From contig NZ_JACJJK010000004.1 in the NCBI RefSeq assembly GCF_016899935.1, positions 124,001-188,000 of the forward strand: 64,000 nucleotides of DNA. Reading direction: 5' to 3'. The notes under the pieces are model-generated. The model was not told the origin of the DNA. It searched no databases and was given only the letters and a program-made list of their open reading frames with translations. The stretch's first letter is position 1. Each line of letters opens with the position of its first letter. This document shows positions 7,824 to 42,751 of the stretch, in pieces. Position numbers and translations under genes: made by a program. The stretch comes from Olsenella uli. GTDB lineage: Bacteria > Actinomycetota > Coriobacteriia > Coriobacteriales > Atopobiaceae.

Positions 7824-8615
7824 ATGAAGGTCGTCATCCTGGCTGGGGGCTTTGGCTCCCGGATTTCCGAGGAGAGCCATCTGCGCCCCAAGCCCATGAT
7901 TGAAATCGGTGGCAAGCCGATTCTCTGGCACATCATGAAGGGCTACGCCCATTATGGGTTCAACGACTTCGTCATCTGCGCGGGCTACAAGCAGCAGGTA
8001 ATCAAGACTTACTTCAACGACTACTTCCTCGAGATGTCTGATGTCACGTTCGATTATCGTGACGGCAACAAGGACGTTGAGGTCCACAGCACCGTCGCCG
8101 AGCCGTGGCGCGTGACCGTGGCGGATACCGGTTTTGATACCTTCACCGCTGGCCGCATCAAGCGTATCCAGAAGTATGTGGGCAACGAGCCCTTCCTGCT
8201 CACCTATGGCGACGGCGTCTCGGATGTGAACCCCAACGACATAATCGCCCATCACAAGAAGGTCGGCGGCCTTGTCACCATTACGGGCGTTGTTATGAGT
8301 CAGCGCTTTGGCGTGCTGGACATAGACGAGACGGACCACATCTCGTCGTTCCGCGAGAAGCGCGACGCGGACAACGCCTTCATAAACGGAGGCTTCATGG
8401 TCGTGGAGCCCGAGGTCTTTGACATCATCGGCACGAGCGGCGTCCCTGCGGACCGCGAGGACTTCTCCGGCGTAACGATGGAGCGTCTCGCTCGCGAGGG
8501 CCAACTTACCGTCTATCCCTACGAAGGCTTCTGGCGCTGCATGGATACTCAGCGCGACAAGCAGAAGCTTGAGGATCTCTGGGAGTCTGGCAACGCTCCA
8601 TGGAAGGTGTGGTAG
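7824..8615 (+). CDS. rfbF: Glucose-1-phosphate cytidylyltransferase
   Basis: A 263-residue enzyme of normal family length that makes CDP-D-glucose from CTP and glucose-1-phosphate, the entry step to CDP-linked 3,6-dideoxyhexoses. The nucleotidyltransferase signature ILAGGFGSRISEESHLRPKP is at the N-terminus, followed by MIEIGGKPILWHIMKGYAHYG and YGDGVSDV (metal-binding region). This is highly typical of RfbF/AscA rather than RmlA or GalU. The ATG follows TAGGAGCTGGT. It is the first gene of a tight operon: rfbG begins 3 bp after its stop. Cytoplasmic. Confidence 0.95.
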   Translation: MKVVILAGGFGSRISEESHLRPKPMIEIGGKPILWHIMKGYAHYGFNDFVICAGYKQQVIKTYFNDYFLEMSDVTFDYRDGNKDVEVHSTVAEPWRVTVADTGFDTFTAGRIKRIQKYVGNEPFLLTYGDGVSDVNPNDIIAHHKKVGGLVTITGVVMSQRFGVLDIDETDHISSFREKRDADNAFINGGFMVVEPEVFDIIGTSGVPADREDFSGVTMERLAREGQLTVYPYEGFWRCMDTQRDKQKLEDLWESGNAPWKVW

Positions 8616-8618
8616 CAC

Positions 8619-9719
8619 ATGACCACGCAAGGCTCTCTTCGCTCTTTCTACGAGGGAAAGCGCGTGCTCGTCACGGGCTCGACTGGTTTTAAGGGAAGCT
8701 GGCTGTGCCGCATGCTCCAACTTCTGGGGGCCGAGGTATACGGCTATGCCCTCGAGCCCTCCACCACCCCGAGTCTTTGGGGCATCGCCGGGATGGGCGA
8801 GAAGGCCGCGCACTCCATGGCGGACATCCGTGACTTAGATGCCCTCGCCAAAGCATTCGACGAGTTCCGTCCTCAGGTTGTCCTTCACCTCGCCGCGCAG
8901 CCCCTCGTCATTGACGGCTACGAGCGCCCCCGCTATACCTACGAGACCAACGTCATGGGCACCGTTAACGTGCTCGAGTGCGTGCGGTCCTGTGACAGCG
9001 TCACGTCCTTCCTCAACGTCACCACGGATAAGGTCTACGAGAACCTTGAGCGTCCCGGTTACGGCTACCAGGAGGACGACAAGCTTGACGGGTTTGACCC
9101 CTACTCAAACTCCAAGAGCTGCTCGGAGATCGTGACCCACTGCTACGCCAAGAGCTTCTTCGACGAGGGTGCGACCGGCGATGCGGCAGGCCGCTGTGCC
9201 ATCTCCACGGCACGCGCCGGCAATGTGATTGGCGGCGGTGACTTCTCCGCCAACCGTATCGTTCCCGACTGTGTGCGCGCCGTGCAGTCCGGTGAGCCCA
9301 TCGTCATCCGTAACCCCAACTCCGTGCGTCCCTATCAGCATGTTCTTGAGCCCCTCGTTGCCTACTTGCGCATTGCGGCGGGGCAGGAAGCCGACCGTGC
9401 GCTCGCCGACTGGTACAACATCGGTCCGGACGACAAGGATTGCGTGACCACCGGTGAGCTCGTGCGTCTGTTTGCCAAGAGCTGGGGCGACGGCTTCTCC
9501 TTCGTGGAGGGCCATGTGGACGGTCCGCACGAGGCCAACTTCCTCAAGCTGGACAACACGAAGGCCAAGCAGCGGCTGGGCTGGCAGCCCGTATGGGACG
9601 TGGCCGAGGCCATCTCTCGTACGGTAGACTGGACACGCGCCTGGCTCGACGGCGGCGACGCCGCGGCAGTCGCCTGCATGGACGAGCAGATCAACGACTA
9701 TCTTGGAGCTCTGATTTAG
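8619..9719 (+). CDS. rfbG: CDP-glucose 4,6-dehydratase
   Basis: A 366-residue short-chain dehydrogenase/reductase family enzyme that converts CDP-glucose to CDP-4-keto-6-deoxyglucose. The NAD-binding motif is VTGSTGFKGSWL (about residues 17-28). The catalytic region has TTDKVYEN and YSNSKSCSE (Tyr-x3-Lys). The GNVIGGGDFSANRIVPD segment is characteristic of RfbG. It sits between rfbF and rfbH with 3 bp before it and no gap after, so translation is probably coupled. Confidence 0.95.
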   Translation: MTTQGSLRSFYEGKRVLVTGSTGFKGSWLCRMLQLLGAEVYGYALEPSTTPSLWGIAGMGEKAAHSMADIRDLDALAKAFDEFRPQVVLHLAAQPLVIDGYERPRYTYETNVMGTVNVLECVRSCDSVTSFLNVTTDKVYENLERPGYGYQEDDKLDGFDPYSNSKSCSEIVTHCYAKSFFDEGATGDAAGRCAISTARAGNVIGGGDFSANRIVPDCVRAVQSGEPIVIRNPNSVRPYQHVLEPLVAYLRIAAGQEADRALADWYNIGPDDKDCVTTGELVRLFAKSWGDGFSFVEGHVDGPHEANFLKLDNTKAKQRLGWQPVWDVAEAISRTVDWTRAWLDGGDAAAVACMDEQINDYLGALI

Positions 9720-11054
9720 ATGGCTTTTGAGGACAAGACCGAGCAGGAGGCACGCGAGGAGATTCTGGCGCTCGTGGCCGAGTATACGAAGGCTTACAAG
9801 ATGCCCAAGCCTTGGCAGCCTGGGGAGCGCATTAGCTATGCCGGTCGCGTGTTCGACGAGCGTGAGATTGTTGATCTGGTGGATTCCTCATTGGACTTCT
9901 GGCTTACCGCCGGCCGCTACACAGAGAAGTTCGAGCGTGAGTTCGCCAAGTACGTCGGCGTCAAGTATGCCGCCGTCACCAACTCCGGCTCCTCCGCTAA
10001 CCTGTTGGCCTTCTCCGCCCTGACAGCTCAGGATCTCGGCGACCGCGCTATCCGCCCGGGCGACGAGGTCATCACCGTGGCCGCTGGCTTCCCCACCACG
10101 GTGTCGCCCATCATCCAGTTTGGCGCCGTCCCCGTCTTTGTGGACGTGACCATTCCTCAGTACAACATCGACGTCACCAAGCTCGAGGAGGCCGTCTCGC
10201 CCAAGACAAAGGCGGTCATCATCGCGCACACGCTGGGCAACCCGTTTGACCTTGCTGCGGTAAAGAGCTTCTGCGACAAGCACAACCTCTGGCTGGTGGA
10301 GGACTCCTGCGATGCCCTGGGCTCCAGGGCCCTCGTCGACGGCGAGCTTCGTATGTGCGGTACCGTTGGCGACATCGGAACGGCGAGCTTCTATCCCGCC
10401 CACCACATGACGATGGGCGAGGGAGGTGCCGTCTTTACCAACAACCCGCTGCTCAATCGCATGGTCCGCTCGTTCCGCGATTGGGGTCGCGACTGCGTGT
10501 GCCGCGGCGGCGAGGACAACCGTTGCGGCCACCGATTTGACGGCCAGTACGGCGAGCTCCCGCGTGGCTACGATCACAAGTACGTCTACTCGCACTTTGG
10601 CTATAACCTCAAGGTCACGGACATGCAGGCTGCCATCGGCTGCGCGCAGCTTGAGAAGATCGCCGACTTCGTCGAGGCGCGTAAGAAGAACTGGGCGTAT
10701 CTGCGAGACGTGCTTGCCGGTACGGAGGACAAGCTCATTCTTCCGGAGCCGCTGGCCGACTCCGATCCCAGCTGGTTCGGCTTTGTCATCACCTCTGCGG
10801 AGGGTGTGGACGGCAGCGAAGTCGCACGTCGCGTGGAGGCGGAAGGCGTCCAGACCAGGCGTCTCTTTGCGGGCAACCTCCTGCGCCACCCGTGCTTCGA
10901 CCCCATCCGCAACACCGACCGCTATCGTGTGGTGGGCTCCCTCGACCAGACCGACCGAATCATGCGCGATACCTTCTGGATCGGCGTCTACCCCGGCATG
11001 ACGGACGAGAAGCTCGAGTACATGGCTAACGCCATCAAGAAGGCGGTGGCGTAA
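9720..11054 (+). CDS. rfbH: CDP-4-keto-6-deoxy-D-glucose 3-dehydratase (E1)
   Basis: A 444-residue PLP/PMP- and [2Fe-2S]-dependent enzyme that removes the C3 hydroxyl, giving 3,6-dideoxy sugars. Two signatures separate it from ordinary aminotransferases. The Schiff-base lysine position is His (SFYPAHHMTMGEGGA), and a Cys-x-Cys-x7-Cys iron-sulfur motif follows (CVCRGGEDNRC). The ATG directly follows the rfbG stop. The dedicated reductase partner (E3, AscD/RfbI type) is not in this window, so an unlinked flavodoxin/ferredoxin reductase is probably used (inference). Confidence 0.95.
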   Translation: MAFEDKTEQEAREEILALVAEYTKAYKMPKPWQPGERISYAGRVFDEREIVDLVDSSLDFWLTAGRYTEKFEREFAKYVGVKYAAVTNSGSSANLLAFSALTAQDLGDRAIRPGDEVITVAAGFPTTVSPIIQFGAVPVFVDVTIPQYNIDVTKLEEAVSPKTKAVIIAHTLGNPFDLAAVKSFCDKHNLWLVEDSCDALGSRALVDGELRMCGTVGDIGTASFYPAHHMTMGEGGAVFTNNPLLNRMVRSFRDWGRDCVCRGGEDNRCGHRFDGQYGELPRGYDHKYVYSHFGYNLKVTDMQAAIGCAQLEKIADFVEARKKNWAYLRDVLAGTEDKLILPEPLADSDPSWFGFVITSAEGVDGSEVARRVEAEGVQTRRLFAGNLLRHPCFDPIRNTDRYRVVGSLDQTDRIMRDTFWIGVYPGMTDEKLEYMANAIKKAVA

Positions 11055-11055
11055 C

Positions 11056-12903
11056 GTGGCAATTCGCGTTGCGGACTACATCGCCAATTGGCTTATAGCC
11101 CACGGCATCACCGACTGCTTCTGTGTAACCGGCGGTGGCGCGATGCATCTGAATGACGCGCTTGGGAACAACCCCGGCATGCACGTCACCTACAACCATC
11201 ATGAGCAGGCGTGTGCGATTGCGGCCGAGGGCTATGCGCGTCTTACGCAGCGTATCGCCGTCGTTAACGTGACGAGCGGTCCAGGTGGCACCAATGCTAT
11301 GACCGGCGTGCTTGGCGGCTGGCTCGATTCGATTCCCATGCTGGTGCTCTCGGGTCAGGTCAAGTACGAGACAACCATTGCGTCAACTGACGTGCCTCTG
11401 AGGCAGCTCGGTGACCAGGAGTACAACATCGTGGACTCCGTGCGGCCCATGACCAAGTATTGCTCCATGGTGACCGATCCCAGTCGCATTGCGTATCACC
11501 TCGAGAAGGCCCTCTATGTGGCCACGAACGGGCGACCCGGCCCCTGCTGGCTGGATGTTCCCCTCAATGTTCAGGGTGCCCTGATTGAGGAGGACCAGCT
11601 TCTTCACTTTGACCCCAAGCACGATGACCTGGGTTCAGGGCGCATGCCGCTTCTCAAACAGGAGCAGGTTGCACCCGTTGCGGACGAGACCGTGAAACAG
11701 CTCTTCGAGCTCATCCGCAATGCCAAGCGTCCCGTGGTCCTTGCTGGTGGCGGCATCCGAACGGCAAAGGCATACGACGAGTTCCTTGCCGCTATTGATG
11801 CGATGGGCGTTCCCGTGTGCACCGCCTGGAACGCTCACGATCTCCTTCCCGATGAGCATCCTCTCTACGCGGGCCGTCCCGGTACGGTTGGCCTGCGTGG
11901 CGGGAACCTTGTTGTCCAGAATGCTGATCTGCTTATCTCTTTGGCGTGCCGCATGAACATCCGGCAGATTAGCTACAACTGGGAGAACTTCGCGCCCAAG
12001 GCGTACAAGGTTGCTGTCGACATCGATTCTGCCGAGTTGGTAAAGCCGACGCTTTCGATTGATCTGCCAATTCATGCAGACGTCAAAGACTTCCTCACTA
12101 AGGCCGCTTCCTTTGGTACCCGCGTGGAAGCTTGGGAGCACGAGGGCTGGCTCTCTTGGTGCAAGATGGTCAATGAGAAGTTCCCCGCCACGCTCCCCGC
12201 GCAAGGGGTTCCCTCCGAGCCCATGAATCCCTATGCTTTCATGGATGTGCTGAGCGCCGCTGCTCCCGAGGGACAGGCTGTGGTTGCCAGCAACGGATCG
12301 GCGTGCGTCGTGGGCTTCCAGGCGTGGCGCATGAAGGAAGGGCAGAGACTCTTCACCAACTCCGGTTGTGCGTCCATGGGCTACGGCCTGCCTGCCGCCG
12401 AGGGCGTGGCGGTAGCACGCAAGGGCGAGCCGGTCATCTGCCTCGAAGGCGACGGCTCCCTCATGATGAACCTTCAGGAGCTTGAGACAGTCGCGTACAA
12501 CCATCTCAATATCAAGCTTGTCATCATCAACAACGACGGGTATCACTCCATCCGTCAGACGCAGACCAATACGTTTAACTCGCATTTTTGCGGCGTGGAC
12601 GAGAAAAGCGGCGTCGGCTTCCCCAAGTGGGAGAAGATTGCCGCTGCCTTTGGGATTCCTTTCCACAGGGTCTCGTCGCTCGATAAAGCTGAGAGGGCGA
12701 TTGACGCTTTCCTCTCCGAGGAGGGCCCCGCCATTCTTGAGGCGGTAGTGACGACTGGACAGTTCTTCGAGCCGAAGCTTGGCTCGAAGAGACTTCCGGA
12801 CGGCACCATGGTGTCTCCGTCGCTCGAGGACATGTCCCCGTTTATTCCTGACGAGGATATGACCAACCTGCTGAGCAAGCTTGAGGAGATGGCCGGTGTC
12901 TAG
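11056..12903 (+). CDS. Thiamine-diphosphate enzyme of the acetolactate-synthase superfamily, YerE-like (branched-sugar two-carbon transfer)
   Basis: A 615-residue protein with the full three-domain ThDP architecture. It has the N-terminal Pyr domain with the activating Glu (NHHEQACAIAAEGYAR), a central domain (RPVVLAGGGIR), and the C-terminal PP domain with the GDGS...NN cofactor motif (CLEGDGSLMM to IINNDGYH). True acetolactate synthase is usually encoded with ilvN/ilvC. Here the gene is inside an rfbFGH operon. In Yersinia the enzyme in this place, YerE, adds an acetyl group from pyruvate to C4 of CDP-3,6-dideoxy-4-ketohexose (known biochemistry). The same role is inferred here. GTG start 1 bp after rfbH. 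It overlaps the next gene by 8 bp. Confidence 0.8.
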   Translation: MAIRVADYIANWLIAHGITDCFCVTGGGAMHLNDALGNNPGMHVTYNHHEQACAIAAEGYARLTQRIAVVNVTSGPGGTNAMTGVLGGWLDSIPMLVLSGQVKYETTIASTDVPLRQLGDQEYNIVDSVRPMTKYCSMVTDPSRIAYHLEKALYVATNGRPGPCWLDVPLNVQGALIEEDQLLHFDPKHDDLGSGRMPLLKQEQVAPVADETVKQLFELIRNAKRPVVLAGGGIRTAKAYDEFLAAIDAMGVPVCTAWNAHDLLPDEHPLYAGRPGTVGLRGGNLVVQNADLLISLACRMNIRQISYNWENFAPKAYKVAVDIDSAELVKPTLSIDLPIHADVKDFLTKAASFGTRVEAWEHEGWLSWCKMVNEKFPATLPAQGVPSEPMNPYAFMDVLSAAAPEGQAVVASNGSACVVGFQAWRMKEGQRLFTNSGCASMGYGLPAAEGVAVARKGEPVICLEGDGSLMMNLQELETVAYNHLNIKLVIINNDGYHSIRQTQTNTFNSHFCGVDEKSGVGFPKWEKIAAAFGIPFHRVSSLDKAERAIDAFLSEEGPAILEAVVTTGQFFEPKLGSKRLPDGTMVSPSLEDMSPFIPDEDMTNLLSKLEEMAGV

Positions 12904-13834
12904 CGCGCCGCTCAACATCCAATGTGCCGTTATTACGGGCCCGACGGGAGCCGTGGGCACAGCGTTGATAAACGAGCTGGTTGCCAACGGCATCGAGGTC
13001 GTGGCGGTGCCCCGCGAGGCCTCCAAGCGCCTTTCGTCCATCCCGAAGCACCCTCTCGTCAGGGTGGTGGAGTGCTCGCTTGACCACTACGCTAGGCTTC
13101 CCGAGCTGGTGGGGGAGAAGTGCGACGCCTTCTACCACTTCGCGTGGGACGGGACGTTCGGGGCCCCTCGCCAGGACTGGGCGACCCAGACAAAGAACGT
13201 CGACTTCTCCGTCGATGCCGTCTGTGCCGCATACGAGCTGGGATGCAAGGTCTTTGTGGGTGCCGGTAGCCAGAGTGAGTTTGGGCACGTGGATGGTGTG
13301 CTCCACCCGGATATGCCCTGCAACCCGGACAACGGCTACGGCGCCGCTAAGCTTGCCGCCCGCGAGATGACCAAGGCCTACTGCACCCATCTCGGCATGC
13401 GCCAGGAGTGGTGCCGGATTCTCAGCCTCTTTGGTCCCGGAGATGGTGAATACACCCTCATCTCCCAGACCATCAGAAAGCTCCTTGCTCATGAGCACCT
13501 CTCCTGCACCAAGGGGGACCAGGTCTGGGACTACATCTACAGCAAGGATGCGGCCCGCGCCTTCAAGCTGGTTGCCGAGCGGGGACAGCATGGTTCGGTG
13601 TACTGCTTTGGAACGGGCGAGACCCGTACCCTGCGCAAGTACATCGAGGCCGTTCGGGACATCATCGATCCCTCGGCAGAGATTGGCTTTGGTGAGATAG
13701 ATTACTACCCGAACCAGGTCATGCATCTCGAGGCGGACATAGCCAACCTAAAGGAGGATACAGGTTTTGTGCCCGAGTTCTCTTTTGAGGAGGGCATTCG
13801 CGAAACAATCGATTCGATAAGGGCTGCTGAGTAA
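12896..13834 (+). CDS. NAD-dependent epimerase/dehydratase family reductase, candidate YerF-like
   Basis: A 312-residue SDR-type protein with an N-terminal Rossmann motif (ITGPTGAVGTALI) and a Tyr-x3-Lys catalytic pair (NGYGAAKLAA). The GTG at 12896 is chosen because GAGGAG lies 7 bp upstream and inside the previous gene. The start overlaps the ThDP gene stop by 8 bp, so translation is coupled. In yersiniose synthesis YerF, an SDR, reduces the newly added two-carbon branch. Coupling to a YerE-like gene suggests the same step here (inference). An epimerase or 4-ketoreductase role, to give a simple dideoxyhexose, is the alternative. Confidence 0.75.
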   Translation: MSSAPLNIQCAVITGPTGAVGTALINELVANGIEVVAVPREASKRLSSIPKHPLVRVVECSLDHYARLPELVGEKCDAFYHFAWDGTFGAPRQDWATQTKNVDFSVDAVCAAYELGCKVFVGAGSQSEFGHVDGVLHPDMPCNPDNGYGAAKLAAREMTKAYCTHLGMRQEWCRILSLFGPGDGEYTLISQTIRKLLAHEHLSCTKGDQVWDYIYSKDAARAFKLVAERGQHGSVYCFGTGETRTLRKYIEAVRDIIDPSAEIGFGEIDYYPNQVMHLEADIANLKEDTGFVPEFSFEEGIRETIDSIRAAE

Positions 13835-13857
13835 GCATACCGAGGAAAGGAACCGCC

Positions 13858-14652
13858 ATGAACGTAAACGGCAAGAAGATGGTCGAGCTGCTCAAGGAAC
13901 TTCGTGACGACTACGGTTGTGTTGCCGTGAAGGCCGAGTTTGAGGCCGAAGGCTCCCGCACCGATGAGATGATCATGCTTTGCGAGGTGCTCAACACCGT
14001 GGACATCCCGCTGACCATCAAGATTGGCGGCTGCGAGGCCGTGCGCGACCTCGACCAGTGCAAGCTGCTCGGCGCCAAGAGCATCATGGCCCCCATGATC
14101 GAGACGCCGTTCGCCCTGAGCAAGTTCAAGGGTGCTGCCCGGAAGATCTACGGCGACGAGATGAACGAGATTAACTGGGTCATCAACGCCGAGACCATTA
14201 CTTGCCACAACAACTACGATGCCATCCTTGAAGAGGGGAAGGGCTTTCTCGACATGGTGGGCATCGGGCGCGTTGATTACTCCGCTTCGCGCGGCCTCAC
14301 GCGCGCTGACATCAACAACGATGTGATGCTCGAGGCCTGCATTGATATTGCAAAGCGCTCCCGTGAGGCGGGCCTGATGGTCGCCTTCGGTGGCGGCGTT
14401 TCCTTTGACGCTATTCCCTTCATTCAGGCCATGGCGCCCTATGCCGATCGCTTCGAGACGCGTAAGGTCCACTTTGAGGTCACCGATAATGCCGAGAAGC
14501 TCAAGGGCGGCATCTTCCGAGCCATGCAGTTTGAGGCGCTCTACCTCGAGAATAAGTGCTCGTTCTATGACAGCATGGCCAACGAGGATCGCGCTCGAAT
14601 GAAGATGATGCATGAGCGCATCGCTAAGGCCGAGCAGGACTTGGGGCTGTAA
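13858..14652 (+). CDS. HpcH/HpaI aldolase/citrate-lyase-like protein
   Basis: A 264-residue TIM-barrel-type protein. A metal-binding Glu in MAPMIETPFAL and a later VGIGRVDYSASRGL segment correspond to the E and GxxD motifs of the HpcH/HpaI/CitE superfamily, which make or break C-C bonds using pyruvate or acyl-CoA. The substrate cannot be read from sequence. It is 23 bp after the SDR gene in a sugar-nucleotide operon and directly before a HAD phosphatase. It may therefore act in modification or in donor supply for the branched sugar (inference). The ATG has GAGGAAAGG upstream. Confidence 0.7.
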   Translation: MNVNGKKMVELLKELRDDYGCVAVKAEFEAEGSRTDEMIMLCEVLNTVDIPLTIKIGGCEAVRDLDQCKLLGAKSIMAPMIETPFALSKFKGAARKIYGDEMNEINWVINAETITCHNNYDAILEEGKGFLDMVGIGRVDYSASRGLTRADINNDVMLEACIDIAKRSREAGLMVAFGGGVSFDAIPFIQAMAPYADRFETRKVHFEVTDNAEKLKGGIFRAMQFEALYLENKCSFYDSMANEDRARMKMMHERIAKAEQDLGL

Positions 14653-14655
14653 GTC

Positions 14656-15315
14656 GTGACACGACCCAAGCTCGTCATATTCGATTTGGACGGAACCCTT
14701 CTCGATACCGTTGAGGACGTTGCTGATTGCTTCAACGCGGCCCTATGCGAGTGCGGTTTTCCGGCGAAGTCTCTCGATGACATTATCGCCTTGGTCGGCG
14801 GTGACCTCGAGACGATTGTGAGCAAGCTGCTGCCTCTAGGCGCATCCCAAAAGGATGTGGCTGAGGTGAAGGATTGCTACCGTCGAATCTATGCGGCGAG
14901 CGAAAAGCCAAAGACTCGTCCCTATGACGGAATTCCCGAGCTGCTGGGCGAGTTGAAAGCCAACGGGGTAGATATCGCCGTTAACACCAACAAGGGTCAG
15001 GACCTAGCGGAGAAGTGCTTGGCATCTGCGTTTCCCAACATGAAGATTCCCGTTAGCGGTCTTGTGGACGGAATCCCGCACAAGCCTGACCCCTGTGGGG
15101 TGAACGTGTTGCTCGATGCTGGCCCCTATAAGGCCGAAGAGGCGGTATACGTTGGCGACGGAGTGAGTGATGCGCTGACGGCGAGTAATGCGAACATGCG
15201 CTTTGTATACTGCGCCTGGGGACAGGGCGACGAGCGTCGGGTGCTTGCGGTCTCCTCGGATGCGCCGGTTGCTCGCAACGCCCGCGAGCTTAAATCGATT
15301 TTGATGGAGCGATAG
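14656..15315 (+). CDS. HAD-family phosphatase (phosphoglycolate-phosphatase-like)
   Basis: A 219-residue HAD hydrolase with motif I DLDGTLLDT (about residues 10-18), motif II VNTNK, a lysine region KPDP and motif IV YVGDGVSDAL. The cap domain is the helical C1 type, as in Gph/pyrophosphatase-like members. The substrate is probably a small phosphosugar or phosphoacid. The gene starts at GTG 3 bp after the lyase stop, with a weak ribosome site that indicates coupling. Together with the lyase it forms a pair whose product presumably feeds the same glycan (inference). Confidence 0.75.
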   Translation: MTRPKLVIFDLDGTLLDTVEDVADCFNAALCECGFPAKSLDDIIALVGGDLETIVSKLLPLGASQKDVAEVKDCYRRIYAASEKPKTRPYDGIPELLGELKANGVDIAVNTNKGQDLAEKCLASAFPNMKIPVSGLVDGIPHKPDPCGVNVLLDAGPYKAEEAVYVGDGVSDALTASNANMRFVYCAWGQGDERRVLAVSSDAPVARNARELKSILMER

Positions 15316-15323
15316 CAGACGCC

Positions 15324-16316
15324 ATGAATGAGACTACACAGCAACAAAAGAAGCTCGTGAGCATATGTGTGCCCTGCTTCAATGAGGTTGACAATGTCAT
15401 ACCGATGGCGGCCGCCCTTAAGGAGCAGATGGACGCGCTGCCTCAATATGACTACGAGATTATCTTCATCGATAACTACTCGACGGATGGTACGCGCGAC
15501 AAGTTGCGCGAGATCTGCGCTGCGGGATCTAAAGTGAAGGCCATTCTCAACTCGAGAAACTTCGGCCAGTTCAACTCGCCGTATTACGCCCTCTGTCAGG
15601 CAAGCGGGGACTGTGCCATTTCGTTGAGCTGTGACTTCCAGGATCCCCCCGAGCTCATCCCAAAGATGCTCGAGCTCTGGGAGGACGGGCACGGCATAGT
15701 GTGCCCAGTCAAGACACAGAGCAAGGAAAGTGGATTCGTCTACTTCCTGCGGTCTTGCTACTATAAGCTAATCAGAAAGCTTTCTTCAGTCGATCAGATT
15801 GAGCACTTTACTGGTTTCGGTCTCTATAGCAGGGCATTTCTGGATGTCATGCGCTCCCTTGAAGATCCCACTCCCTTCTTGCGCGGAATTGTTGCCGAGC
15901 TCGGCCCTGCGGACCGTGCTCTTCTTCCTTATGAGCAGCAGGAGCGCAAGAGCGGCAAGACGCATAACAACTTCTGGAGCTTGTACGACGCCGCGATGTT
16001 GTCTTTTACAAGCTACACCAAGGCTCCGTTAAGGGCAGCGGTGTTCATCGGGTTTGCGGCTTCGGCGATCAGCTTGATTGTTGCTGTTGTGTTCTTGGTG
16101 CTTAAGTTGACGAACTGGTCTGCTTGGCCGGCCGGCTCAATTCCCGTCCTTTTGGCGGTACTTGTTCTGGGCTCGCTCCAGCTGTTTTTCATTGGACTGC
16201 TGGGGGAGTACGTATTAACCATTAATGCGCGAAGCATGAGAAGACCTCTAGTGGTTGAGGATCAAAGAATCGGAGAGTGGGGACAACGGGGGCCGGGGCA
16301 TGCTGCAAAGCAGTAG
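15324..16316 (+). CDS. GT2 polyprenyl-phosphate sugar synthase (DPM1/GtrB-like)
   Basis: A 330-residue family-2 glycosyltransferase with an N-terminal GT-A fold: VPCFNEVDNV, IFIDNYSTDGT and SCDFQDPPE (DxD equivalent). Two C-terminal membrane segments lie at about residues 237-300. This matches GtrB/ArnC/DPM1-type enzymes, which load a sugar from a nucleotide onto undecaprenyl phosphate for a GT-C enzyme that acts outside the cell. The next gene encodes a large multi-membrane protein that could be that GT-C partner. It ends the high-GC operon begun by rfbF; downstream the base composition drops. Confidence 0.85.
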   Translation: MNETTQQQKKLVSICVPCFNEVDNVIPMAAALKEQMDALPQYDYEIIFIDNYSTDGTRDKLREICAAGSKVKAILNSRNFGQFNSPYYALCQASGDCAISLSCDFQDPPELIPKMLELWEDGHGIVCPVKTQSKESGFVYFLRSCYYKLIRKLSSVDQIEHFTGFGLYSRAFLDVMRSLEDPTPFLRGIVAELGPADRALLPYEQQERKSGKTHNNFWSLYDAAMLSFTSYTKAPLRAAVFIGFAASAISLIVAVVFLVLKLTNWSAWPAGSIPVLLAVLVLGSLQLFFIGLLGEYVLTINARSMRRPLVVEDQRIGEWGQRGPGHAAKQ

Positions 16317-16397: not shown

Positions 16398-18407
16398 ATG
16401 GCAAGAAACACGAAGATTAATCGAGCAATGGATGTAACGGTAATCCTCGCGGTCTTTGCCACTTTTTTTGTGCTAGCTGCCTACTACGACTTTCTGAGAG
16501 ACCAATTTAGGATTCGGGGACTAGTGATATCCCTGGCGTTTGTGTTGGCCACGGCCATTGCGGCTGCGGTGTTCTTGATGGAACTCAGACTCCGCTTTAA
16601 ACGTCCCGCGGCCAAGCAATGGCTGATTGAGAATAAGGCGCCATTGTTCGGGGGGCTCGCAGTCGCTGCAGTTGTTCTCGTTCCGCGTCTATTCCAGTTG
16701 CACGTCCCCTTATTCTGGGATTCGGCCTTTTATTGGCATGGTTTACAGTTAGCTGCAGAATTCAACTTCTCCTTCTCAGACTTAATGCATTATGCCGCGA
16801 TTGGATATCATCCATCACAGGCATACAGCATCTTTCTTTTGATCGGGTACTATCTCGATCCATATGGAACCACAGGTGTCAACGCTATACGTGTCCTTAT
16901 GTCTATCATTGAGGGAGTATTTTTATACCGAATTATCTTAAAAATTGTACCGAAGGCTAGGCCATCGATGGCAGCGCTCGGCGCGGCCCTCGTCGTGTCG
17001 TCCCCGCTTTACTTAGGGGTATTTGGCACTCTCAACTTGGATTGGCCGCTGCACATCTTTACTGTATACACTATTTATTTCATTCTATTCAATCATGAAA
17101 TACTTTATATTGCGTCGGCGCTGTGCCTAGTCTTTTCCAAAGAGCCTGGTGTAATACTGCTGTTTGGCATCATTGGGGGAATGCTGCTTGCTAAGCATGG
17201 AAAGAAGCACAATGACGATGCTATAAAAGTGGGCAGCTTCGTGCTAATTGCTCCCCTGGCTTTATCCGCAGGAATCTATGCCTTTTCTAGGCTGTATGTA
17301 CAGTCTTGGGATCCATCTGCGGCAAATGTCTCATATTTTGACTATATTATAGAACATCTAACCATAGAAACAACAATTGATTTAACTAAGTACTTCATTT
17401 TTCGATTTATTACATGCTTTCTAATTAATTTCAACTGGCTCTATTGGATGCTAACGGCGTGTCTCGCCATTATTCTGACGAAGGGAAGGCTGTTTACAGC
17501 AGGGATATGGAAAAATTACCCCCTCTGCCACCATATAACGCTGGTAATCATGGTATGCGTTATTCTGTTCGGTGCCTTTTCAATACTCTATGTCACACTG
17601 AACAACCCAAGGTATTCGATGCCGCTGGAGCTGTTCGCCTCGACGCTCTGTGCTATCTTTCTTGTCTTGGCATCAACGTCTGGGCATGCAAAATACATGA
17701 CTGTCGCAGCAACGGCGCTGGTCATTATATCCATGGTTCAGGCTTACACATCAATTGACCCTATTACGAGGCTGCTCGGCGTAGGTATTCCGTCGGGTAG
17801 AGAGGGAGTGGAAGTGTACGCGCCTCAAAAGGCAAACCGCTTTTATGGCAGCAATCGTATAGAGAATCCTATTGTATTTACCAATGGCGGGCCGGATATG
17901 GCCGTATACAACGGACAGCTGCTTAGTCGTGGAGAACTAATTGACGAGATTTTGAATGAGGCTGGATACGATGGGACGCAGGGCGTGCTGGCATACAACA
18001 ACTCTCAAGTCGTCGACGTTACTCTCTCCGTTACTGGCGGAACGATAATTGATGACGGAAACGGAGGGCGCATTGACTTGGGGCTAAACTGGGATATTGC
18101 TGAGGGGAGACGAACGTTAAGAAAAGAGGATGGGAATAGTATTGTCGACCTAAAGTGCTGGGATGCTGACGAGTTTAGAAGCTTGGCAAGTGAGGGAGAT
18201 AGCTTGCCATCTACGATTATTCTGATAGGGGATCCATTCTCGCAAAGAAACTTTGATGGATCCAACGTTGACTCCTATGCCGGTTTCGAGAATGCGATGG
18301 ACGACATCCTCTTATATTTGGGCCAATGGTACGCTGCGGGTGAACCGAACTGGGTTTCCATCCCGATGCAGTCCGAGATGTGCTTCTATATATTAGAGAA
18401 GAAATAA
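16398..18407 (+). CDS. Large multi-membrane GT-C-like glycosyltransferase (putative)
   Basis: A 669-residue protein with roughly ten to eleven transmembrane segments (first at about residues 12-32, last near 440), then a C-terminal soluble region of about 200 residues. The acidic extracytoplasmic loop after the second or third segment (PLFWDSAFYWHG) fits the catalytic-loop position of GT39/ArnT-type enzymes, which use polyprenyl-phosphate sugars. No named family is certain. Codon use is much more AT-rich than in the upstream operon (many ATA, TTA, AAT), suggesting separate acquisition. It follows a GtrB-like enzyme that could supply its donor (inference). Confidence 0.65.
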   Translation: MARNTKINRAMDVTVILAVFATFFVLAAYYDFLRDQFRIRGLVISLAFVLATAIAAAVFLMELRLRFKRPAAKQWLIENKAPLFGGLAVAAVVLVPRLFQLHVPLFWDSAFYWHGLQLAAEFNFSFSDLMHYAAIGYHPSQAYSIFLLIGYYLDPYGTTGVNAIRVLMSIIEGVFLYRIILKIVPKARPSMAALGAALVVSSPLYLGVFGTLNLDWPLHIFTVYTIYFILFNHEILYIASALCLVFSKEPGVILLFGIIGGMLLAKHGKKHNDDAIKVGSFVLIAPLALSAGIYAFSRLYVQSWDPSAANVSYFDYIIEHLTIETTIDLTKYFIFRFITCFLINFNWLYWMLTACLAIILTKGRLFTAGIWKNYPLCHHITLVIMVCVILFGAFSILYVTLNNPRYSMPLELFASTLCAIFLVLASTSGHAKYMTVAATALVIISMVQAYTSIDPITRLLGVGIPSGREGVEVYAPQKANRFYGSNRIENPIVFTNGGPDMAVYNGQLLSRGELIDEILNEAGYDGTQGVLAYNNSQVVDVTLSVTGGTIIDDGNGGRIDLGLNWDIAEGRRTLRKEDGNSIVDLKCWDADEFRSLASEGDSLPSTIILIGDPFSQRNFDGSNVDSYAGFENAMDDILLYLGQWYAAGEPNWVSIPMQSEMCFYILEKK

Positions 18408-18441
18408 CACACGTATTGTCTGTCTCCGAAGAAGTGGAAGA

Positions 18442-19500
18442 ATGTTGAAATACGCCGAAATGGTCTATGGACCGAATCAAATAGAAACGCACCAGTATGG
18501 GAACCTAGGCGACTGGTTCCAAACATATGCAATGGACTATATCTACAAGTCCATATCGATACAGGATGATCTCATCGTCCGTATAGACAGAAACAGACTG
18601 TCGAGTTATTCGGGCGAAGCCTGCATCTTGCCAATGCAGGGATGGTTTGGACGAGTGGGCGGCATCGAGACCTATCCACTTTCATCACATATCACCCCGG
18701 TATATCTGGGCTATCACTCTGTTGATCCGCGACACTACAGCAGCCTGGCAGTCAAAACGATAAAGGGGCATGAGCCGGTTTGCTGCAGGGACGAGGCAAC
18801 ATGCGAGATGATGAGGAGAAAGGGCATTCGCGCATACTTAACGGGTTGCACAACAGTTGTGTTTCCAAAACGCAGCGAACAAAAGAAGGGTACCAAAGTA
18901 TTTCTTGTTGATGCGCCCTCCGGCATCGAGGACTATATGCCAGACTACCTAAAAGATAATATAGAATATCTGACGCAAGAGGTCCCATACTTGAGCAAGT
19001 CCTTTGATGACGAGGTTGCACGGCTCGACTCTTTGGCAAAAAAGCAATTAAAAAGATATTCGGATGAAGCACGTCTTGTTATAACCTCGCGTCTCCATTG
19101 CGCGGGACCATGCTTGGGCATGGGGATACCAGTTATTCTTGCCAGAAAGTATTTTGATGAAAGATACGGATGGATTGAAAAGTATCTACCGCTATACACT
19201 CCTGATCGCTTTTCGCAGATTGATTGGGACCCGACGCCCCCAGATATGACTTGGATAAAGCAAGAGTTGATTAACCTTGCTAAAGCGCTACTGATTGACG
19301 GGGGGGGGCAATCTGAAGAGATAATGCGTGCTATCGACTCGTACTATCGAAGTAGAGCTAAGGCCCATCTTGCTACGCCATTTTATGTAAAGGCATATCA
19401 CTTAATTCATGGTCGGTATCCAAGAATGGCTGATTTTATAAGAGAGAAGATGCTGCAAAAATATACAATAGCGACAGGTAGAGAAAAGTCACCTAAGTGA
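18442..19500 (+). CDS. Polysaccharide pyruvyl transferase family protein
   Basis: A 352-residue protein with hallmarks of the family: an N-terminal GNLGDWFQTYA stretch, a mid-protein CCRDEATCEMMRRKGI segment, and a C-terminal TSRLHCAGPCLGMGIPVI motif. Members transfer pyruvate from phosphoenolpyruvate to sugars as ketals on surface polymers, although many cluster members are unverified. It lies 34 bp after the GT-C-like gene. AT-rich codons match its neighbours. Cytoplasmic. Confidence 0.8.
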   Translation: MLKYAEMVYGPNQIETHQYGNLGDWFQTYAMDYIYKSISIQDDLIVRIDRNRLSSYSGEACILPMQGWFGRVGGIETYPLSSHITPVYLGYHSVDPRHYSSLAVKTIKGHEPVCCRDEATCEMMRRKGIRAYLTGCTTVVFPKRSEQKKGTKVFLVDAPSGIEDYMPDYLKDNIEYLTQEVPYLSKSFDDEVARLDSLAKKQLKRYSDEARLVITSRLHCAGPCLGMGIPVILARKYFDERYGWIEKYLPLYTPDRFSQIDWDPTPPDMTWIKQELINLAKALLIDGGGQSEEIMRAIDSYYRSRAKAHLATPFYVKAYHLIHGRYPRMADFIREKMLQKYTIATGREKSPK

Positions 19501-19549
19501 AAGAAATAACCGCTCAAACAATTGTTCATGAATATGGAATTGGTGGAAA

Positions 19550-20521
19550 ATGAACAAGAACATCAAGTCGAGCGTCACGGTGATACTGGCGTATTATAAT
19601 GGATCAAAATATATTGAAGAACAGATCGACAGCATTGCTGCGCAAGAGAACGTAGCAACAAATATCGTTGTATTTGACGATGGATCCAGTAATGATGAGA
19701 TAAAATACGTTAGAACAATTTCAAATAAGTATCCTAATGTAACAGTTATTGATAGCGATAGAAATTATGGGCCAAAGCTTAGCTTTTTTGCTGCGTTAAG
19801 AGATGTCCCGAAAGCAGATTTCTACGCATTTTCTGACCAAGACGACGTATGGCTTAAAGATAAGCTTGCAAGAGCGGTGTCGATGATTGGCGAGTTTTCC
19901 GACATGCCGGCTCTCTACTGCGCGAATACGCTGGTCGTCAATGCAAATTTAAATGACCCTCATCCTCAATACATAAAGAACCCCTTGCAGAATATAACTA
20001 CGAAGAGCCTCCTTTCCATGAGTGCGACCATGGGTATGACACACGTGTTTAATGGGAAGATGCGTGATTTAATATCCAAAATTGATATAAATGATATGCC
20101 GATTCTATTCCACGATCACTGGATGGTTTTATTGGCGTCGCTATTCGGTGTAGTCCAATATGATTGCAGGCCTTGTGTTCTGTACAGGCAGCATGGCGCA
20201 AACCAAATTGCTGATACGTCTAATGATATGAAATTCATAGATAAACTAAAATCGAAGGCAAGATTCTTTACTGATCCAGATCGATACGGTGAATATCCAT
20301 TGAGCTATGCTTCAGACCAACTAATTCGATGGTACGGAAATGACATAGATAATGCAATTAAATCCGGCAAAGTCGATCCAGACTTTCGTCGGTACCTGCT
20401 TATGAGTAGCGAATGCCGAGAGTCGGCTGCAAAGCGTCTCGCCTTCGCCTTCAGGGCGCATCGTGATGACTTAGTGGGCACCGCGGTATTGAAATTTAGA
20501 GTCTTATCGAATCGCTATTGA
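19550..20521 (+). CDS. GT2 glycosyltransferase (rhamnosyltransferase-like)
   Basis: A 323-residue family-2 glycosyltransferase: TVILAYYNGSKYIEEQID at the N-terminus, VFDDGSS, and the nucleotide/metal motif FSDQDDVW. The His-rich acceptor-side motif LFHDHWMVLLAS is typical of rhamnosyltransferases of the RfbN/WbbL type. The dTDP-rhamnose genes start 77 bp downstream, which supports rhamnose as donor (inference). This gene has the lowest GC of the region, with many AAA, ATA and AAT codons. The ATG at 19550 is preceded by a weak GGTGG site. Confidence 0.8.
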   Translation: MNKNIKSSVTVILAYYNGSKYIEEQIDSIAAQENVATNIVVFDDGSSNDEIKYVRTISNKYPNVTVIDSDRNYGPKLSFFAALRDVPKADFYAFSDQDDVWLKDKLARAVSMIGEFSDMPALYCANTLVVNANLNDPHPQYIKNPLQNITTKSLLSMSATMGMTHVFNGKMRDLISKIDINDMPILFHDHWMVLLASLFGVVQYDCRPCVLYRQHGANQIADTSNDMKFIDKLKSKARFFTDPDRYGEYPLSYASDQLIRWYGNDIDNAIKSGKVDPDFRRYLLMSSECRESAAKRLAFAFRAHRDDLVGTAVLKFRVLSNRY

Positions 20522-20598: not shown

Positions 20599-21501
20599 AT
20601 GAGAGGCATTATCCTTGCGGGCGGATCCGGCACTCGCCTCTACCCGCTCACACTCGTGACGTCCAAGCAGCTGCTGCCCGTCTACGATAAGCCGATGATC
20701 TACTACCCGCTGTCGGTGCTCATGATGGCGGGCATCCGCGACATCCTGATCATCTCCACCCCCACCGACCTGCCCAACTTCGAGCGACTGCTTGGCGACG
20801 GCTCGCAGTTTGGCATCAGCCTCTCCTATGCGGAGCAGCCCTCGCCCGACGGCCTCGCGCAGGCCTTCATCATCGGCGAGGAGTTCATCGCCGGCGAGCC
20901 CTGCGCGCTCGTCCTGGGCGACAACATCTTCTACGGCAACGGCCTCTCCCGCCACCTGCGTCGCGCCGTCGAGCGCGCCGAGGCCGAGGGCGGCGCCACG
21001 GTCTTCGGCTACCACGTGGACGACCCGGAGCGCTTTGGCGTCGTGGAGTTTGACGCCGAGGGCCGCGCCCTCTCCATCGAGGAGAAGCCCGAGCACCCCA
21101 AGAGCTCCTACGCCGTGACCGGCCTCTACTTCTACGACTCCCGCGTCTGCGAGCTGGCCAAGAAGGTCAAGCCGTCCGCGCGCGGCGAGCTGGAGATTAC
21201 CACGCTCAACCAGATGTACCTGGAGGACGGTTCGCTAAACGTGGTCACGCTCGGCCGCGGCTACGCGTGGCTGGACACCGGCACGATGGAGAGCCTCTAC
21301 GAGGCGAGCGAGTTCGTCCGCGCCGTCGAGCGCGCGCAGGACACGCCGGTCGCGGTGCTCGAGGAGATCGCCTACGAGAACGGCTGGGTCGGTGCGGACG
21401 CCCTCCTCGCTGCCGCGGACGCTTACGGCAAGAGCGTCTACGGCGCCCACCTGCGCCGCGTTGCCGAGGGCAAGGTCGTGCACCAGAAGCGGGAGTGGTA
21501 G
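20599..21501 (+). CDS. rmlA: Glucose-1-phosphate thymidylyltransferase
   Basis: A 300-residue enzyme, first step of dTDP-L-rhamnose synthesis. The signature [16 protein letters not shown] opens the protein, followed by [17 protein letters not shown], the LGDNIFYG metal site and the EKPEHPKS segment. GC content jumps back to the high-GC norm at the start codon. The 77-bp upstream gap is AT-rich and probably holds a promoter. The next gene, an rmlC-rmlD fusion, follows after 3 bp. Confidence 0.95.
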
Positions 21502-21504
21502 TCC

Positions 21505-22947
21505 ATGGAGTTCGAGAAGGATTTGCGCGTTACCAAGACCAACATCCCTGGCCTGCTGGTGGTTGACCTGCCCGTGCACGGTGACGCCCGCGGCTGGTTC
21601 AAGGAGAACTGGCAGCGCGCCAAGATGGTCGCCGCCGGGCTGCCCGCCGACTTCCGCCCCGTGCAGAACAATGTCTCCTTCAACGCGGAGCGCGGCGTCA
21701 CGCGCGGCGTCCACGCCGAGCCCTGGAACAAGTTCGTCTCCGTAGCGGCGGGCCGCATCTTTGGTGCGTGGGTTGACCTGCGCCCTGGCGAGACCTTCGG
21801 CCGCGTCTTCACCTGCACGCTCGATCCATCCCGTGCGATCTACGTGCCGCGCGGCGTGGGCAACTCCTTCCAGGCGCTCGAGGACGGCACCGCCTATACC
21901 TATCTTGTGGACGCGCACTGGTCCGCCGAGCTCAAGAAGACCTACACCTTTGTGAACCTCGCCGATCCCGAGCTGGGCATCGAGTGGCCCATCCCGCTCT
22001 CCGAGTGCACGCTCTCGGAGGCCGACAAGAACCACCCCATGCTCGCCGACGCCCTCCCCATGGCGCCCGAGCGCACGCTCGTCACGGGCTGCAACGGCCA
22101 GCTCGGCCGCGCCGTGCGCGCGCTTATCGAGAAGCGCGGTCTTCTCGCCAACTTTGACTTCTGCGACATCGACGAGTTTGACTTCTCCGACCCCGCCCAG
22201 TACGACCGTTACGACTGGTCGCTCTATGGCACGGTGATCAACTGCGGCGCGTACACCGCCGTGGACCGCGCGGAGACCGCCGAGGGCCGTGTCGCCTGCT
22301 GGCGCGCCAACGCCACGGGCCCGGCGCTGCTCGCCCGCACCTGCGCGGAGCACGGCATCACGCTCGTGCATGTGAGCTCGGACTACGTCTTTGACGGGGC
22401 GACCGAGAACCACGGCGAGGATGAGGACCTCTCACCGCTGGGCGTCTACGGGCAGAGCAAGGCCGCCGGCGACCTGGCCGTGGCGGGCTGCCCTGCGCAC
22501 TACGTGGTGCGCTCGAGCTGGGTCATCGGCGACGGAGGAAACTTCGTCCGCACGATGGCGGGCCTCGCGCGCCGCTGCGCCGACCCCGCGGACGCGATCG
22601 AGTGCGTGACCGTGGTGGACGACCAGCTGGGGCGGCTCACCTTTACCGACCAGATGGCCGAGGGCATCTATGCTCTTCTCGACGCCCATGCTCCGTACGG
22701 CACCTACAACCTCACAGGCTCCGGCCGCGTGGCCTCCTGGGCCGAGATTGCCCGCGAGGTCTTTGAGCTCACGCGCGGCAACGGCGACGCCGTCGTGCCC
22801 GTGGCCACCGCCGAGTACTACGCGAGCGCCGTTGGCCCCGTGGCCCCGCGCCCCGCCCACTCCGACCTCGACCTCTCCAAGATCCGTGCGGCGGGCTTCT
22901 CGCCCCGCGACTGGGAGGACGAGCTGCAGGAGTATCTACAAGTCTAG
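21505..22947 (+). CDS. rmlCD: Fused dTDP-4-dehydrorhamnose 3,5-epimerase / dTDP-4-dehydrorhamnose reductase
   Basis: A 480-residue bifunctional protein. Residues 1-190 are RmlC: RGVHAEP carries the catalytic His, AWVDLRPG the Asp, and the Tyr lies in AYTYLVD. Residues about 192-480 are RmlD: Rossmann motif TGCNGQLGRAV, VINCGAYTAVDRAE, HVSSDYVFDGA, and YGQSKAAGD with Tyr-x3-Lys. It would complete dTDP-L-rhamnose from the RmlB product. RmlC-RmlD fusions are known in some Actinobacteria. RmlB is not adjacent but lies at 45965-46984. It ends convergently with the next gene, 9 bp apart. Confidence 0.92.
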   Translation: MEFEKDLRVTKTNIPGLLVVDLPVHGDARGWFKENWQRAKMVAAGLPADFRPVQNNVSFNAERGVTRGVHAEPWNKFVSVAAGRIFGAWVDLRPGETFGRVFTCTLDPSRAIYVPRGVGNSFQALEDGTAYTYLVDAHWSAELKKTYTFVNLADPELGIEWPIPLSECTLSEADKNHPMLADALPMAPERTLVTGCNGQLGRAVRALIEKRGLLANFDFCDIDEFDFSDPAQYDRYDWSLYGTVINCGAYTAVDRAETAEGRVACWRANATGPALLARTCAEHGITLVHVSSDYVFDGATENHGEDEDLSPLGVYGQSKAAGDLAVAGCPAHYVVRSSWVIGDGGNFVRTMAGLARRCADPADAIECVTVVDDQLGRLTFTDQMAEGIYALLDAHAPYGTYNLTGSGRVASWAEIAREVFELTRGNGDAVVPVATAEYYASAVGPVAPRPAHSDLDLSKIRAAGFSPRDWEDELQEYLQV

Positions 22948-37374: not shown

Positions 37375-37375
37375 C

Positions 37376-39447: not shown

Positions 39448-39448
39448 C

Positions 39449-42740: not shown

Positions 42741-42751
42741 ACTGGTCACCT

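Follow-up and report, generated by a model that had tools for sequence, protein, structure and literature searches.

RfbF, RfbG and RfbH lead towards cytidine diphosphate (CDP)-4-keto-3,6-dideoxyglucose, and the classical yersiniose A route, to our knowledge, takes a two-carbon branch from pyruvate with neither a lyase nor a phosphatase involved. The subject of this analysis is a 64,000-nucleotide stretch of the Olsenella uli genome (contig NZ_JACJJK010000004.1, positions 124,001 to 188,000; hereafter the window), where an operon of the order RfbF-RfbG-RfbH-YerE-YerF-lyase-HAD-GT2 (GT2, glycosyltransferase family 2) contains a divergent HpcH/HpaI-type lyase and a HAD phosphatase. According to the available text of a 2025 review (PMC12247030), the YerE-type enzyme JanthE accepts donors both short and longer, among them pyruvate; for ErwE the donors are 4-hydroxy-2-oxo acids and not pyruvate, and MMAR_2332 is described as resembling it; no enzyme supplying the hydroxylated 2-oxo acids is named in that text. 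Erwiniose is a 10-carbon branched sugar in the accessible part of PMC8657720, which could be accounted for as six carbons plus four from 4-hydroxy-2-oxopentanoate, and caryophyllose is given in the accessible part of PMC5706390 as 3,6-dideoxy-4-C-[altro-1,3,4,5-tetrahydroxyhexyl]-hexopyranose, with C2 of the branch unsubstituted, as a decarboxylative transfer from a 2-keto-3-deoxy acid would leave it. We consider it fairly probable that the lyase–phosphatase pair of the window is the donor-supply module of a pathway to a long-branched sugar of this kind.

A first-pass annotation of the sequence had described the pair as attached to a dideoxysugar operon, and this was confirmed by the open reading frames (ORFs), by the PF03328 and HAD_2 matches, and by the spacing, with 23 bp from the stop codon of the YerF-like short-chain dehydrogenase/reductase (SDR; 13834) to the lyase ATG and 3 bp from the lyase stop codon to the HAD GTG. 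A purine-rich, ribosome-binding-like stretch lies 5' of the lyase ATG, and 8 bp separate the HAD stop codon from the start of the GT2 gene. The yersiniose-pathway genes RfbF, RfbG and RfbH are all present, each above its equivalog cut-off, and we share the earlier view that the pair itself is not known to belong to the classical yersiniose route. The closest solved structure to the thiamine diphosphate (ThDP)-dependent enzyme is 8rph (6e-117, with an alignment spanning residues 3-601), which we take to be JanthE, an assignment with which the residue numbering of one published paper agrees. The phosphatase contains the motifs DLDGT, NTN, KPDP and GDGVSD, the four catalytic motifs of HAD enzymes, and falls under both phosphoglycolate phosphatase equivalog cut-offs tried (TIGR01449, 92.3 vs 180; NF009695, 105.1 vs 225).

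In the predicted pathway, the lyase, a probable aldolase making a 2-keto-3-deoxy (phospho)acid donor, would work in the synthetic direction and couple pyruvate with an aldehyde, most probably one bearing a phosphate (glyceraldehyde 3-phosphate or erythrose 4-phosphate, for example), to give a 2-keto-3-deoxy phospho-acid. The HAD enzyme would strip the phosphate and thereby also draw the reversible aldol reaction towards its product, in the manner of KdsC following Kdo-8-phosphate synthase. The YerE-type enzyme would decarboxylate the acid and add the remaining polyhydroxyacyl unit to the C4 ketone of CDP-4-keto-3,6-dideoxyglucose, the YerF-like SDR, a probable reductase of the branch ketone, would act on that ketone, and the completed sugar would be placed on a polyprenyl carrier by the GT2. 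A 3,6-dideoxy-4-C-(polyhydroxyalkyl)hexose of 11 or 12 carbons, near caryophyllose, would result, rather than the 8-carbon yersiniose. This particular order of events, a phospho-aldehyde acceptor followed by the phosphatase, is put forward more tentatively than the donor-supply role, our confidence in it falling a little short of even. The first-pass annotation had suggested that the pair could make or attach an additional carbon branch or a phospho-carboxylic donor; the making of a donor fits the comparative evidence given below, and an attached phospho-carboxylic donor is unneeded, since the phosphate is more likely removed before transfer.

The lyase family was collected by scanning a genome collection with a three-row alignment, and the best 80 of 158 relatives, together with the window and two plasmid loci, make up the 83 loci considered here; counts over these loci are unthinned and include near relatives, many of them sphingomonads. 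A YerE-type ThDP carboligase was found within the stretch examined in 57 of the 83, with the lyase and carboligase ORFs abutting or overlapping in 23, and the linked loci belong, by the ranks in their record titles, to eight phyla (Actinomycetota, Bacillota, Bacteroidota, Pseudomonadota, Planctomycetota, Myxococcota, Cyanobacteriota and Margulisiibacteriota). Because the 83 loci were gathered via the lyase, even draws of 398 Pseudomonadota and 396 Actinomycetota genomes were used as well; the centre genome of the Pseudomonadota draw, G447, had been found through the lyase. Among the 398 Pseudomonadota, 19 had a YerE-type match at 1e-150, eight the lyase at 1e-10 and six both (Fisher p 1.3e-7, or 2.1e-6 without G447), and the two genes shared a contig in five of the six double-positive genomes. 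Two further genomes, G773 and G812, carry a weaker YerE-type enzyme (36-37%), RfbFGH and the lyase inside one 16-kb stretch, so that seven of the eight lyase-bearing Pseudomonadota genomes (six of seven without G447) hold lyase and YerE-type gene in one cluster, 24 bp to 11.4 kb apart. Five of the 396 Actinomycetota had a YerE-type match, and the four besides the window genome were without the lyase.

The lyase occurs with three clades of ThDP enzymes, in the largest of which 39 of 41 rows are linked to it; the tree is a quick one with some long branches, most of its linked rows were gathered via the lyase, and 22 of 90 rows (duplicate copies of a gene, fragments and near-identical rows) are omitted from it. 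An alignment of the ThDP enzymes includes 22 of the proteins from the 57 loci. Lyase and ThDP distances are correlated (r 0.82 over 48 rows, 0 of 2000 permutations, with eight rows of the two smaller linked clades omitted), which agrees with joint inheritance but also with shared species history. A search of plasmids with the ThDP enzyme at 1e-90 gave no match. Chance neighbourhood was rejected on the linkage, the even-draw co-occurrence and the mirrored distances taken together; the random co-occurrence that the first-pass annotation had held up as the contrary case is thus mostly contradicted by the survey, and was seen in part, at the loci L009, L015 and L024, where the pair stands without a YerE-type enzyme in the stretch examined.

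The YerE-type loci of the two even draws (five from Actinomycetota and 19 from Pseudomonadota) offer a view of the same question from the carboligase side. The divergent lyase is present in six of these 24 (G000, G447, G518, G566, G620 and G646). Eight others have a NeuB-type synthase within 224 bp of YerE (G413, G459, G467, G498, G514, G550, G558 and G642), named by Pfam in three cases and in five by tblastn at 56-65% identity to Pfam- or NCBIfam-named copies; the corresponding locus labels, in genome order, are L127, L144, L129, L145, L128, L140, L146 and L143, and in L127 and L129 the synthase bears a cupin domain. A canonical HpcH directly precedes YerE in two (G679, with a Pfam score of 99.9 bits, and G412), both under the HpaI equivalog cut-off, and two more (G714 and G517) have in the cluster a DmpG-type aldolase with an acylating acetaldehyde dehydrogenase, the dehydrogenases assigned by tblastn at 56-65% identity to named copies and the G714 aldolase scoring above the 4-hydroxy-2-oxovalerate aldolase equivalog (370 bits vs 286). 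G679 also holds a DmpG/acetaldehyde dehydrogenase pair, its dehydrogenase above the equivalog, and G412 a DmpG-like match of 30%. The acetaldehyde dehydrogenase and DmpG-type genes of L130 (G679), L138 (G714) and L148 (G517) lie inside RfbH- and YerE-type loci, and these three gene sets look erwiniose-type. In all, a 2-oxo-acid synthase of some kind accompanies YerE in 18 of the 24 loci, or 16 of 22 when the window genome and G447 are set aside. No synthase was detected in the remaining six (G037, G178, G502, G578, G570 and G630) by tblastn with NeuB, HpcH, DmpG and acetaldehyde dehydrogenase, with Pfam applied to some ORFs only; G570 shows about 640 bp before YerE, and in G630 YerE starts at the contig end.

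By family, NeuB-type enzymes form 2-keto-3-deoxy acids from phosphoenolpyruvate (PEP) and sugars, and those of the HpcH and DmpG types are aldolases acting on pyruvate; the product class common to all three is that of the 4-hydroxy-2-oxo acids. The divergent lyase was found by tblastn together with another of these synthases near YerE in none of the 24 loci. Among the 83 lyase loci, the window included, tblastn gave no match to canonical HpcH, DmpG or acetaldehyde dehydrogenase, and its four NeuB matches were of 27-29% identity and at least 4 kb from the lyase.

A phosphatase gene on the same strand lies within 3.5 kb of the lyase in 33 of the 83 loci and abuts it in 24; in L072 it lies farther off than this. 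The phosphatases come from two unrelated superfamilies, with HAD enzymes of cap type IA in 13 loci, including the window, and of type IIA in L084, and inositol monophosphatase types in 19 sphingomonad and related loci (Pfam was run on one). Nine other loci have a PfkB kinase, for which the best models in the one tested were 2-keto-3-deoxygluconate (KDG)-kinase types, under their cut-offs, and ten others an AroB-related sugar-phosphate phospholyase, whose one tested member scores above the cut-off. No locus belongs to more than one of the three sets, which together account for 52 of the 83; the neighbour profiles behind these counts were trained on members near the lyase, with one or a few members per cluster named by Pfam or NCBIfam. 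All seven clustered loci of the even draw have, in the stretch examined, either a gene for a HAD-IIA-like protein (G518, G566 and G646, with 32-35% to that of L084) or one related to AroB (G447, G620, G773 and G812). This company of phosphatases and phosphate-related genes favours a phosphorylated aldehyde as the acceptor of the lyase. The AroB-related protein, a putative cyclizing phospholyase, is mostly beside an SDR in its ten loci (L006, L014, L034, L036, L040, L050, L060, L066, L067 and L068) and might form carbocyclic sugars; a literature search for TIGR04425 returned no papers.

The lyase itself is a distant member of its superfamily. The window protein matches PF03328 over residues 70-174 only (34.8 bits, cut-off 25) and no NCBIfam model, and a phmmer search with the single sequence found nothing among solved structures at E up to 1. 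Its closest relatives are at Enorma L005 (76% identity, gene order as in the window) and Collinsella L009 (77%). A profile of 57 of the 83 members matched the hydroxyketoacid aldolase 6r62/7nr1 (7e-6), YfaU (3e-4) and HpaI and GarL (1e-3 to 4e-3), and profile comparison with Escherichia coli GarL and YfaU gave a probability of 96%. In that comparison lyase E112 is aligned with GarL E153 and D140 with GarL D179, the two GarL residues being the metal ligands of that enzyme; E112 and D140 are invariant in the residue alignment, which has 55 of the 83 members (L003 and L004 are among those left out). The 55 lyases also have in common motifs around KAEFEAEG, KIGGCEA and FETRKV, in which most positions are invariant. 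The AlphaFold model (predicted local distance difference test, pLDDT, 94.7) had the AbHpaI-Zn-pyruvate complex at the top rank in Foldseek. VIA-align placed a pyruvate kinase first (Z 19.3), followed by the citrate synthase SbnG (19.1), the AbHpaI-Zn-pyruvate-propionaldehyde complex (Z 18.9, 194 residues, 2.7 Å) and GarL (Z 18.9, 194 residues, 2.6 Å), with HpaI-pyruvate complexes and GarL (18.8-18.9) interleaved with further pyruvate kinases. The pyruvate-binding, catalytic Arg of these aldolases is HpaI R70 or GarL R75, and the catalytic His is HpaI H45 or GarL H50. Read from the strand order of the model, K55 apparently stands in the place of the Arg and F28 in that of the His, and both are invariant in 55 of 55 rows; the canonical HpcH copies in L130 and L137 keep Arg and His.

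Several of the observations weigh against the donor-supply role. On the side of the enzyme, the N-terminal half of the lyase does not align by sequence with known aldolases, and the apparent exchange of Arg and His for K55 and F28 means that its mechanism must differ somewhat from that of HpaI and GarL. Pyruvate kinases score as high as the aldolases in VIA-align and, besides taking the first rank, fill most of the 50 matches listed, so the fold supports membership of the superfamily and not aldolase function alone. On the side of the neighbourhood, 50 of the 83 lyase loci are without a same-strand phosphatase of the types searched within 3.5 kb; G413 has a HAD gene right after YerE with NeuB in place of the lyase, so the HAD enzyme is not peculiar to the lyase; in G467 lyase and YerE-type gene are on separate contigs; and the lyase matches in G566 and G646 cross one stop codon. 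G037 has a YerE-type enzyme of the window clade, RfbFGH and a YerF-like SDR with no synthase found, which keeps pyruvate possible as the donor. The ThDP residues D120 and R303, found in 39 of 49 linked rows and two of 18 unlinked ones, were rejected as independent evidence because a single change on the tree explains them.

To these points are added the 26 of 83 lyase loci with no YerE-type enzyme in the stretch examined. Some of their contigs are short, and one Sphingomonas genome has a YerE-type enzyme about 11 kb away; the genomes of L009, L022 and L057 gave no YerE-type match at 1e-120 anywhere. Several of these loci pair the lyase with class I aminotransferase, ATP-grasp, DegT-like, PfkB or HAD genes, a setting that would agree with conversion of a 2-oxo acid into an amino acid and an amide. 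In L009, L015 and L024 lyase and HAD gene abut, which makes the pair a portable module. In L018, L022, L026 and L027 the lyase is found with a KDG-kinase-like PfkB, a class I aminotransferase and an ATP-grasp protein, perhaps another use of the same acid. Six Microcystis loci showed no partner of those searched for, and the three of them that were mapped had a one-side neighbour from a single cluster, in L057 a class II tRNA synthetase. The Ilyobacter relative sits among acid-catabolism genes, and a Novosphingobium humi plasmid carries RfbF, RfbG and the lyase; the stretch examined there lacks RfbH and YerE, and the plasmid record as a whole gave no YerE-type match at 1e-120. A search of phage records gave no match.

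The YerE-less loci bear most directly on the view that the window holds a classical yersiniose operon, with YerE acting on pyruvate, and that the pair makes an unrelated residue or an acyl decoration of the same polysaccharide. The abutting lyase and HAD genes of L009, L015 and L024, near ATP-grasp and aminotransferase genes, would suit such a role, as would G037 with its window-clade YerE and no lyase, whereas the 23 loci with abutting or overlapping lyase and YerE-type ORFs, the mirrored distances and the presence of other 2-oxo-acid synthases where YerE occurs without the lyase are harder to reconcile with it, and we regard it as unlikely. The donor-supply reading draws on this same exchange of synthases, which also speaks to the chemistry of the lyase, since the stand-ins for it at other YerE loci are of 2-oxo-acid synthase types. 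That argues, as does the retention of both metal ligands in 55 of 55 rows, against the lyase being an isomerase, an epimerase or another lyase on a sugar phosphate that uses only the barrel and the metal site; the unrecognised N-terminal half, the family Arg and His that are apparently invariant Lys and Phe, and the equal structural scores of the pyruvate kinases leave that idea some room, and we think it quite improbable.

Another arrangement would have the lyase act later than YerE, in an aldol step that lengthens or shortens the branch carried by the CDP-sugar, while the HAD enzyme serves something else. The order YerE-YerF-lyase in the window and in L005 would be natural for it, and the AroB-related and SDR genes beside other lyase copies hint at later work on the branch. 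HpcH-type aldolases are known, as a family, for free 2-oxo acids, however, and a free acid would, judging by family, also be the product of the DmpG-type aldolase with acetaldehyde dehydrogenase in G714 and G517, so that we give this arrangement very little weight. Formation of a free 2-keto-3-deoxy acid ahead of YerE is the reading we prefer.

The coordinates of the operon genes are given in the table. The ORF of the YerF-like SDR overlaps that of YerE, and its true start is probably further inside.

Table. Genes of the window operon and the gene that follows it, with positions in the window
Feature	Position	Strand	Basis
RfbF, glucose-1-phosphate cytidylyltransferase	7824..8615	+	TIGR02623 equivalog, 349 bits vs cut-off 300
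RfbG, CDP-glucose 4,6-dehydratase	8619..9719	+	TIGR02622 equivalog, 407 bits vs cut-off 278
RfbH, pyridoxamine 5'-phosphate (PMP)-dependent 3-dehydrase (E1)	9720..11054	+	NF011936 equivalog, 709 bits vs cut-off 423
YerE-type ThDP carboligase	11056..12903	+	TPP_enzyme N/M/C domains; 8rph alignment
YerF-like SDR	12881..13834	+	Epimerase PF01370; YerF cluster in 12 loci
Divergent HpcH/HpaI-type lyase	13858..14652	+	264 aa, ATG start; PF03328 above cut-off
HAD subfamily IA phosphatase	14656..15315	+	219 aa, GTG start; HAD_2 PF13419, 111.8 bits
GT2, PgfS/ArnC-like polyprenyl-phosphate sugar transferase	15324..16316	+	NF047588, 166.8 bits, under cut-off 500; GT2 cluster in 62 loci
669-aa protein without Pfam or NCBIfam match	16398..18407	+	Position and hydrophobic sequence point to a possible membrane GT-C transferase

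The lyase of the operon is the only PF03328 match in the whole window genome, and none of the 59 other relatives of this genome searched had a match to it, so the region is probably a variable polysaccharide locus. The G+C content is 63% in the window, 58% and 57% in the lyase and HAD genes, and 46% at 16398-19500; the region 16398-20521, which includes this low-G+C part, also holds a polysaccharide pyruvyl transferase and a GT2 and is perhaps imported. No clear E3 reductase of the RfbI/AscD type for RfbH was found at 7824-15315 or in a search of the genome, where two FAD_binding_6 matches lie on other contigs in ORFs of 482 and 484 aa. Further along the window, one 480-aa ORF (21505-22947) has apparent RmlC-like and RmlD-like parts and adjoins an RmlA-like gene (20599-21501), and a second glycan cluster (37343-44179) contains three GT2, an O-antigen-ligase-like protein, a pyruvyl transferase and a flippase-like protein.

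A wider reading, which we regard as possible and hold with slightly less than even confidence, is that the lyase founds a new aldolase family, with catalytic residues of its own, whose 2-keto-3-deoxy sugar acids serve for ThDP-dependent grafting onto nucleotide sugars, that YerE-type operons generally contain an exchangeable donor module by which the length and shape of the branch are set, and that many loci apt to be read as yersiniose-like, those of Coriobacteriia among them, make sugars of 10 to 13 carbons not yet described. The modules would be the divergent lyase with its phosphatase, the NeuB-type synthase, canonical HpcH, and DmpG with acetaldehyde dehydrogenase. If this is right, the branch on a surface sugar would be predictable from the gene content beside yerE, unusual higher-carbon sugars would be expected on Coriobacteriia, and a source would be found for the unusual 2-oxo acids that ErwE-type enzymes need. 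A conserved lyase family of eight phyla would gain a role, and new aldolase-carboligase pairs would become available for chiral tertiary alcohols. A literature search, with limited coverage of subscription journals, found no paper on an HpcH lyase beside yerE, nor any account of the lyase family, its phosphatase partners or the exchange with NeuB and other synthases, parts of which may be covered by Steitz et al. 2022 and Krug et al. 2024. Pathways of this kind are already known from erwiniose and caryophyllose, and the novelty of the lyase module is uncertain.

Kdo-8-phosphate synthase followed by KdsC makes a phosphorylated 2-keto-3-deoxy acid and removes the phosphate with a HAD enzyme; the logic of making and then dephosphorylating would be the same in the window, with differences in the synthase, in the PEP donor and in the acid itself becoming the sugar. 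The class II pyruvate aldolases HpaI, GarL, YfaU/RhmA and SwHKA have the fold and the Glu/Asp metal ligands in common with the window lyase, which is set apart from HpaI and GarL by its unaligned N-terminal half, by a first strand and catalytic Arg and His that are apparently unshared, and by its own family motifs. With the YerE/YerF system of yersiniose A the window has in common RfbFGH, a ThDP carboligase and an SDR reductase, the lyase and phosphatase being extra. A YerE-type enzyme in an RfbFGH operon, as expected of loci of the erwiniose and caryophyllose type, is present in the window. In the available text on erwiniose, Pectobacterium ErwE, an enzyme of the YerE type, adds a hydroxylated 2-oxo acid to CDP-4-keto-3,6-dideoxyglucose (PMC12247030); in contrast to erwiniose-like loci, the divergent lyase with a phosphatase is what the window contains, and neither DmpG nor acetaldehyde dehydrogenase has a match there. 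Caryophyllose of Mycobacterium marinum (MMAR_2332), as far as the accessible part of PMC5706390 describes it, carries a long polyhydroxyalkyl branch at C4 of a 3,6-dideoxyhexose, the kind of branch predicted for the product of the window operon.

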